Positions 6,781 through 9,700 of a DNA stretch of 64,000 bases are shown in pieces. The stretch is from NCBI GenBank assembly GCA_017506865.1, contig JAFCMP010000530.1, forward strand, positions 310,001 through 374,000, read 5' to 3'. This DNA is from Tribonema minus (taxonomy: Eukaryota > Sar > Xanthophyceae > Tribonematales > Tribonemataceae). The notes under the pieces were generated by a model that searched no databases, was not told the origin of the DNA, and saw nothing but the letters and a program-made list of their open reading frames with translations. Within the stretch, counting starts at the first letter, position 1. Every line of letters starts with the position of its first letter. Made by a program: the position numbers and the translations under genes.

Positions 6781-9700
6781 TCAGATCATGGGGTAGCTGG
6801 CGCAGTCCGCGACGCCGCACATGTTCTGCCCGCGCGCCATGCGGAAGTACCCTGACTCGCCCCTGATGCAAACGCACGCAAAGAGTGCGGACAGGTGAAA
6901 ATGAGGATGATATAGTCTACTTCGAAGTAGTTCAGAAATACTTTCAAGTAGCTGATTGCAGTGAGAGAATCGAATCGCCGACAGCAGACACAAGGACACT
7001 TCGTATGATGAGATGGCCGCAAGTTCACTTGCGCGTGCGCTGCACACAATTGGCAGCAGCGGCACCGATGCCTTGGAGCATTGGGAGCGCTACTTGAAAT
7101 GGTGGCGCCAACGCATTCACGCACTTGAGTCCTCCACTAGTTCATCATTGGCGCAATATGAAGAACTCCCCCCCACCCTCTCTCCCTCCTCTTGAACTTC
7201 GCCATGACACCGCGCGAAATGCAACCAAAGAGTTGGAAGACAGAGAAGAGCTGCACCTTACATAGTTGGTGGGCACGTACAGATGATCGCTTGGGGCGCG
7301 AGACAGTCCACATGGTCGTCATCTCCGCAACACCTGCGACACGTGTCTCTGTCCGGTCTAGAAAGAACACAACGGCCGAGCATGCACTGTACTTGTTGTG
7401 AATTCTCGCTCAGGGCGCAAAAAAGCCCAGATGAAAGGCATCTAAGCTTGCTGTACGGAAGCTACATGTCATGCGACGGTCTGAAAGTGTCCCGATGACA
7501 ACCACTCAAACGACGCCGCCAAATTGCATTTCGAAATCATCCCCCCCTACGCACTGTACCACTCACCAGTCCGCGCCCCACGAGTTCTTGATGATCCAGT
7601 AGGGGGTGCCGTTGTCGTCCGTCCCGTACCCGACGCTCAGGACGGCGTGGTTGACCTGCATTGCCATCGCAGGTGTACATCAGACGTATCGTCAGCATTA
7701 TTGTTGACTGAACGTAGTGGTGGCGGCGCCTGGTGCAGACTGGTGATGCGGCAGCACAGCGCGTGCGACGCGTGACCGCAAACGCGCGGTGCTAGCTGCT
7801 GCCTCTGATTATGCTGGAAGGGTCGCGCGCTTCGGTCGATGTCAGCAGCTGAGCAGAGGGCGTCGCCCAGCGTGAACTGTGCAAGATCTCACGGGTGCCT
7901 GTGGCAGCTGGCAGCGGTCGCTGTTGCTGTGCCACCAGCTGCGCAGGCCCTCTATCCTGGCCACAGCATTGCAGGATGCTGCGCGCTCAGCGCACGACCG
8001 CAAAACAGTCAATTTGCAGCCTGCCTTAGCTGCTGTGTGAACGGCTACTAAGCAACTCAACGCGCCAGCGCGCGCTACCAAACCAGCGCGTCAGCGCGCG
8101 CTACCTCGTCGGGGCGCGAGCCGCAGTCGGGGTTGTCGTAGACGCCGGCCGCGTACGACTTAAAGTCACGCATCACGTCAAACGCGACCGACACGGGCCC
8201 CGCGCTGCCCACCGCCTGCTCGAGCTCCTTCTCATCCTACGCGCGCGCGGTCGCAAAACGCACAACAACAGCAGAGCAGCGGCGACGACGGAGGGCAGAA
8301 TAAATGCGCGAGCGCACCTCATCAGGGTGCGTGCCGCATGCAGGGTTGTTGTAGACGCCGGAGGCGTACGACATGAAGTCGTCCGTGACGTCGAACGCGA
8401 TAGACACGGGGCCGGCGCTGCCGACGGCCTGCTCGAGCTCCTTCTCATCCTGCGCGAGGGGGGCCGGACAGACGGGCGCACGCGCGTGCGCAACTCTAAT
8501 TTTGCGACATGGTGCATGTACTACCACACATGGCGCTGCCATTATATCGGGACGCTGGAGCAGCATCACCACGCGGAGCCGATGCAAGATCCACGAGCAC
8601 TTGAAGTGCAGTGCCGGCAAGGCGTTCGTGCTGGTAGATGTATGATTGAGCCTCTTGCCATTCGATGCACACACGAGCCCCCATGTCAAGGTATAGAGCA
8701 CCGTCAACAAAGTTGCAGACCGCGCGAGCCGCTTTTGTCTAGGCAGTGATGTGCCCCGCCTGTGCCCTATGCAAATATATGTCAGCGCTGGGGTGCTGCA
8801 TTGCCCGCTCCAGACTGCCACCATCGTCAGCGACATTTCGCAAAGAAGCTCGTTGGCTTGCACCGATCGCGATGCATTCATACATGCCCACAGCACGAGT
8901 TGCAGGCCATGCAGCACACCCACGGTGGCGACAGCGCTCGCAAGATCATCACTTAGGCAACGAGCCGAAACATGCGCACACGACCTCAGCAGGCTGTCCG
9001 CAAGAGCGGGTAGCGGCGCGCCGATACTACCGTCGCAGATACGCGCCTGCACCACATGAGATCTCGTTGGAGGCATTGGGCACAGGAGCGGCAGCAGTGG
9101 AGGCGGCAGCTGCGCCTGCGGCAACATCACGTCCTGCTAGCAGCACGCCTGGCTAGCAGCAGCAGCAGCGCGTTGCGACACCTGCAGAGCCACTGACCTG
9201 GTACGTGATGTTGACGGATGCCCGGACAGTGGCGCCGACGGCCACAGGGTCAAACACGCAGCTGCACGAAAAAGACAACAACGACAGGCACGGAGGGCGG
9301 TTGGGGGGGGGGAGGGGGGGGGGGGCGTCAGCAGCGCTGCCAGTTCCACGCCATGAGCACTTCACGGACAGCTGGTGGTAACACGCAATCGGTATACAGT
9401 AACACGCAATCGGTATACAGTAAAAGGCGTCACAGAAAGATAACAAGGTCGCCCGCACCGCCAAGGCGGCACAAGAGTGTGCGACGGCGGTACCGCGCAC
9501 AGCGGCCCTGGGCTTGCTCCATACTGATGTTGTGCTTCCACGCCATACCTGTGGCAGGGCCTCAGCTGCGCGAAGTGCTGCAGTATGAGCGCTGCGGCCT
9601 GGAGCGTCAATTAAAAGCCTGGAGCGTCCAGTTCAAGTGCATGGCAACGCGATGCGCATGCGCTGCCTTGAGGGCACGACCACTGATGGCTCGGCGGAGG

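Follow-up and report, generated by a model that had tools for sequence, protein, structure and literature searches.

Tandem copies of an exon before the catalytic histidine of a cathepsin H-like protease: a candidate case of mutually exclusive splicing

A protease gene in the window, as we call the whole stretch of 64,000 nucleotides analysed here, carries two similar exons side by side, just upstream of the exon for its catalytic histidine. Does each mRNA take only one of them, does it take both, or has one copy fallen out of use? In the alpha-tropomyosin gene, two exons are made mutually exclusive by a branch point that is too close to the upstream donor. To our knowledge, most known examples of mutually exclusive exons that are homologous to each other come from animals. 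The first-pass annotation of the locus had proposed that the two exons, called A and B below, are alternatives of this kind. Our analysis makes mutually exclusive splicing the best explanation, with each mRNA most likely taking one copy, though we hold this at a little less than even confidence.

Results

The gene and its product

The gene lies on the minus strand, from 14390 to 6781, and 12 of its exons were recognised; with A or B included singly, 11 exons encode a cathepsin H-like sequence of 311 residues. The first exon that could be placed by homology (14338..14390) belongs to the propeptide, and the Inhibitor_I29 match starts inside it. Two more propeptide exons, at 13516..13585 and 13067..13123, were placed by the exon model and the domain match. 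Alignment to human procathepsin H locates QNCSAT, the mini-chain motif of cathepsin H, in the exon at 12046..12120, and the exon model together with the alignment locates the start of the mature enzyme at 11404..11489, the catalytic cysteine (CGSCW) at 10691..10802 and a further exon of the mature domain at 10170..10285. The exon 5' of the duplicated pair (9198..9261, from the exon model) ends in phase 0 with ..NITYQ. Then come copy A (8318..8449), the intervening intron of 81 nt (8237..8317) and copy B (8105..8236); each copy has 132 nt and 44 residues, and the genomic PF00112 matches of A and B score 29.2 and 29.1 bits, respectively. The downstream exon (7567..7655) holds the catalytic histidine (VNHAV) and asparagine (KNSWG), and the last exon (6781..6862) the stop codon and a cysteine (CASYP), both exons being supported by the exon model and the alignment.

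The best match among solved structures was human procathepsin H (6czk), with 4e-94 for the form containing A and 2e-92 for the form containing B, and cathepsins L came behind. The A form is nearer to cathepsin H (318.5 bits to 6czk, vs 313.1 bits for the B form). The full isoforms match PF00112 with 268.4 and 269.4 bits, and the propeptide matches the I29 family PF08246 with 55 bits. The catalytic cysteine, histidine and asparagine are all retained in the alignment to human procathepsin H, in which QNCSAT is aligned with the human QNCSAT and the cysteine of CASYP stands at the place of the partner cysteine. The roles of the mini-chain EPQNCSAT and of its partner cysteine in cathepsin H are described in PMC6059440. 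The catalytic triad residues, the mini-chain motif, the partner cysteine and the propeptide are common to this protein and to human and porcine cathepsin H (6czk, 1nb3/8pch). The best structure match and the mini-chain motif bear out the cathepsin H-like identity given by the first-pass annotation, and we regard the product, on its sequence, as a cathepsin H-like enzyme of papain family C1. Among the protein matches listed for the genome, none is a close second copy of the gene; the next, C20, is 49-59% identical in pieces. As a separate observation, an intron of the gene contains a tandem duplication (window 12441-12597) with a period of 76 bp and 97.5% identity.

Two intact copies of one exon

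A and B are aligned over their 132 bases without a gap, at 81.8% identity (E 5e-36, and 6e-35 in the self-comparison of the window), which exceeds chance. Between them there are 24 base differences and nine residue differences, which leaves 35 of the 44 residues identical. Both are open and free of indels, as had been claimed, and the first-pass account of their positions, equal length, shared phase, splice borders and nine residue differences proved right: each exon has 132 nt, phase 0 at both ends and GT-AG borders. The two therefore show the features by which adjacent mutually exclusive exons are recognised, namely equal length, same phase, similarity and valid borders. The similarity ends at the exon edges: of 60 flanking bases compared at each end, 22 agree next to the acceptor and 13 next to the donor. 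The pair forms a tandem repeat in direct orientation, about 213 bp in size, and a DNA search of the 158-Mb genome returned its place alone among the matches listed. A and B are a real, intact duplication of a whole exon. Our own gene finder recovered the exact borders of both copies, yet its training set included the cathepsin gene, which makes this agreement circular; its output for the whole window, a single gene of 88 exons, was not credible and was not used.

An unusually short intron between the copies

The 81-nt gap had been called short for this genome, and it is: it lies below all 79 intron estimates that our script derived for HSP70 and CCT genes (173-2370 nt, median 520) and below the ten other introns of the cathepsin gene (392-946 nt). 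The scripted estimates are gaps between neighbouring matches, from which those above 5 kb and those between non-contiguous or overlapping neighbours were dropped and in which introns bridged by a single match are missed; a few of the 79 come from genes on C179 and C90 that possibly are not ordinary host genes. In the match lists for myosin and kinesin, read by eye, the shortest ordinary gap was 142 nt (kinesin, C79). Smaller gaps there were 42 and 126 nt for myosin (C71, C509), in rows of equal open-frame length, which we took for insertions within one exon, and 41 and 79 nt for kinesin (C246, C511), between overlapping matches.

We then considered the signals for splicing, using 32 splice sites (21 from HSP70) and 30 introns (19 from HSP70), with the gene finder supplying the HSP70 models and a hand model the 11 introns of this gene. 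The 81-nt intron has adenosines exclusively at nt 13, 17, 67 and 80, and nt 18-66 are 71% pyrimidine. It is alone among the 30 introns in having no adenosine between -16 and -63, the next lowest having one, and it belongs to the seven in which no YTNAY falls in the normal window, such a motif being found there in the other 23. Its single YTNAY is TTTAT, with the A at nt 17. No AG precedes the terminal AG, so that the AG-free zone covers the whole intron, a length that falls inside the 7-105 nt spread of the other introns. Ranked from 1 as the weakest, the acceptor and donor of A came 26th and 14th, and those of B 4th and 1st. The score of B's donor (2.24) is practically that of an indispensable donor of the same gene (2.25).

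A branch adenosine within the intron would be 13-17 nt away from A's donor, or else about 15 nt from B's acceptor (nt 67). A branch point at nt 13 or 17, far under the threshold of about 50 nt described for OGDH, would by analogy forbid the splicing of A to B, while one at nt 67 would permit it; the branch point might also lie elsewhere than in this intron. The earlier proposal that the short gap prevents both exons from being joined is consequently upheld in part: the shortness is real and the usual branch adenosine is missing, but shortness alone is insufficient and the argument depends on the inferred branch point. The reading frame offers no filter against double inclusion, since A and B joined keep the frame. 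RNA structure as the means of selecting one exon was considered and set aside as unsupported. Shuffled versions of the 81-nt intron fold just as well (z 0.21), and the inverted repeats near A and B are only short and imperfect (12-26 nt, 77-92% complementary).

Constraint on copy B

The A/B differences fall mostly at third codon positions (14 of 24), and the estimates were dS 0.71 and dN 0.11, a ratio of 0.16; a simple count gave a pN/pS of 0.22. In a 108-residue piece scored against PF00112, A reached 128.1 bits and B 126.9, so that B's nine changes cost 1.2 bits. Eight random variants of A with nine altered residues scored 113.9-119.9 bits, a loss of 8.2-14.2 in every one of the eight. B is therefore compatible with the family, its cost being 1.2 bits against 8-14 for random change.

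We compared the pair with simulations conditioned on 22-26 base differences, in which success meant at most nine residue changes and no stop. With one copy neutral since the duplication, 0.7-1.3% of 4000 runs each were successful. With both copies constrained (4000 runs), the fit was 65-89% at a ratio of 0.10-0.15, 43% at 0.2 and 17% at 0.3. With B silenced late, over just the final 10-20% of its life, the share of fitting runs was 38-59% (2000 runs each). Judged from these sequences, the constraint on B is real in its pattern.

The residue differences lie in the segment before the catalytic histidine, as the first-pass annotation had it, but they are spread from residue 17 to residue 41 of the exon rather than gathered only beside the histidine. 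By ungapped alignment and the His166 numbering of PMC6059440, they correspond to human positions 136, 141, 142, 145, 149, 153, 156, 159 and 160. The changes T/M, D/R and M/K are aligned with human residues 141, 142 and 145. Positions 141 and 145 presumably correspond to residues that in cathepsin K line the S1' side. In this stretch the resemblance of A is to human cathepsin H (VTxDFM), and that of one part of B, YAxGVYD, is to a cathepsin L (9hjy). A difference between the isoforms in primed-side preference is plausible from these positions.

Tandem exon copies elsewhere in the genome

The self-comparison of the window yielded 16 repeat pairs at 11 places, A/B included. One pair, at 24994/25394, looks like ankyrin protein repeats. 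At 29366-30231, in a gene that we take to be ankyrin-like, there are two copies of the 5' part of an exon and one of a 3' part, and one of the 5' copies and the 3' copy run into TAG. The HSP70 genes on C41 and C544 contain short tandem duplications with periods of 67-188 bp, some straddling exon ends; none was found in the HSP70 genes on C522 and C548. The CCT genes on C51, C5 and C135 have tandem duplications that touch exons, those on C5 and C135 in more complex arrays. In the gene on C51 (21300-23100), positions 150-1154 hold six tandem starts consisting of an intron end and an exon start, the exon itself included. In the ankyrin-like, HSP70 and CCT cases the extra copies comprise the 5' or the 3' part of the exon only. 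Short tandem duplications are common in this genome, which seems prone to them.

Across five families we inspected at least 395 exon-level matches (cathepsins at least 31, HSP70 at least 80, CCT at least 56, myosin at least 96, kinesin at least 132), and A/B was the only whole-exon pair among them. The scripted search listed seven overlapping neighbour pairs in HSP70 and CCT genes, of which those on C51 (twice), C5 and C135 are exon parts and the one on C548, which has no DNA repeat, is an over-run of the match; by eye, overlapping neighbours numbered none in myosin and two in kinesin (C246, C511). The reading of overlapping pairs left aside those on C190 and C279 (HSP70/CCT) and the two in kinesin.

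Several of the truncated copies share the low ratio of A/B. On C51, copy 692 has a pN/pS of 0.02 (15 synonymous changes to 1 non-synonymous) and copy 879 of 0.05 (8:1); the copy at 521 on C135 has 0.15 (2:1) and the HSP70 copy on C544 0.17 (4:2). The copies at 150, 313 and 493 on C51 and at 116 and 403 on C135 range from 0.24 to 1.16, the high ratios being inflated in rows 116 and 403 of C135 and row 150 of C51, which overrun the copied part or its frame. The copy on C5 has 0.42, one copy in the ankyrin-like gene has 0.32, and two short copies have 2:0 each. The truncated copies with low pN/pS may once have been functional, may have diverged before the duplication, or may exchange sequence with functional exons. 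The neutral model applied to B would fail for them too. Because low pN/pS is also seen in these copies, none of which could stand in for a complete exon, the constraint on B is no proof of its use, and our confidence in exclusive splicing is reduced for the same reason.

Two side observations concern the assembly. Cathepsin matches with long open frames, two per contig, occur together with HSP70 matches on C179 and C90; their spacing is similar and they span more than 430 kb. These stretches may be large inserted elements related to each other, possibly of viral origin. The 18S rRNA locus on C259, around 30012, has a stramenopile-like look and shows apparent single-base losses in homopolymers; eight probes compared with it gave no match.

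Discussion

Mutually exclusive splicing is the preferred explanation. Duplication in tandem of some 213 bp, covering the whole exon and 81 bp of flank, produced two interchangeable copies before the catalytic histidine. Both have stayed compatible with the protein family, and each mRNA would take one of them. Since its splice sites are better than those of B, A would be the default form and B a minor or regulated choice. A would not be joinable to B because B's branch adenosine, at 13 or 17 nt, would be too close to A's donor, and the two resulting enzymes may differ on the primed side of the cleft through the T/M, D/R and M/K changes.

We considered the possibility that A alone is used now and that B, formerly an alternative exon or functional copy, was silenced recently, its weak splice sites being the first decay. 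The ranks of B's sites (donor 1 and acceptor 4 of 32, vs 14 and 26 for A), the greater closeness of A to cathepsin H (318.5 vs 313.1 bits) and the simulations with late silencing, which fit in 38-59% of runs, agree with this. Yet B has no stop, no indel and no lost border, its nine substitutions cost just 1.2 bits, and silencing ever since the duplication fits only about 1% of runs. We judge recent silencing unlikely, while giving it real weight. Inclusion of both exons in every mRNA, giving a protein with a 44-residue tandem insertion, is very improbable in our estimation. The A-B junction is indeed in frame with GT-AG borders, and the protein that joining would give keeps its PF00112 match, divided over two stretches. 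The segment, however, is a core part of the fold just before the catalytic histidine, the alignments examined have no such insertion, and each copy singly resembles the normal segment; the intron between them, moreover, is smaller than the rest of the intron estimates and lacks an adenosine where branch points usually fall.

The low dN/dS might also owe nothing to the use of B, if A and B had diverged before they became adjacent, by unequal crossing-over of diverged alleles or homeologues, or if they occasionally exchanged sequence with functional copies. Such a history would account for the low ratios shared by the truncated copies (C51 692 and 879, C135 521, HSP70 on C544) and for intron flanks of A and B that do not align. 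Alleles with a dS of 0.71 would nevertheless be exceptional, the protein matches listed include no close second copy (C20, the next match, is 49-59% identical in pieces), and other truncated copies look decayed (0.24-1.16 on C51 and C135, 0.42 on C5). We consider prior divergence or exchange distinctly unlikely.

The arrangement proposed for A and B is like that of alpha-tropomyosin, an unrelated gene in which it has been proven experimentally: a branch point near the upstream donor. Exons 4a and 4b of vertebrate OGDH are likewise adjacent duplicated exons in an enzyme gene, with a short intron and candidate branch adenosines near the upstream donor. According to PMC7969005, branch points that lie 25-41 nt from the donor impose the exclusivity in OGDH, the threshold being about 50 nt. 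That case was proven by RNA and branch-point mapping, and its intron has 118-131 nt in birds and mammals, whereas the intron here has 81 nt, its behaviour is predicted from sequence, and the host is probably an alga and probably not an animal. Among human clusters of mutually exclusive exons, the counts given in PMC5740500 include 57 (9%) with a donor-branch distance below 50 bp. The clusters defined there consist, as A/B does, of neighbouring internal exons with similar length, the same frame and sequence similarity; unlike the candidate pair A/B, they were validated by RNA-seq.

The kind of event is already known; its interest lies in the host and the setting. None of the titles listed in our literature search describes a pair of this kind in a protease from an alga or protist, which is not to say that none has been published.

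Mutually exclusive splicing can be extended to a fuller account, which we regard as doubtful. Splicing would be strictly exclusive, through a branch point 13-17 nt from the donor, and would switch the specificity of the protease in a eukaryote that probably belongs neither to the animals nor to the plants. A/B would then be the complete end of a genome-wide series in which exon pieces keep being copied in tandem, many of the copies, truncated ones included, carrying an unexplained protein-like pattern of change. More generally, a case of homologous mutually exclusive exons in an enzyme, beside its active site and in a eukaryote so distant from animals, would show that the combination of a short intron and a displaced branch point arises independently. 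In the many partial exon copies of the host genome, which differ in age, the path from a random tandem duplication to an alternative exon in use could be studied.
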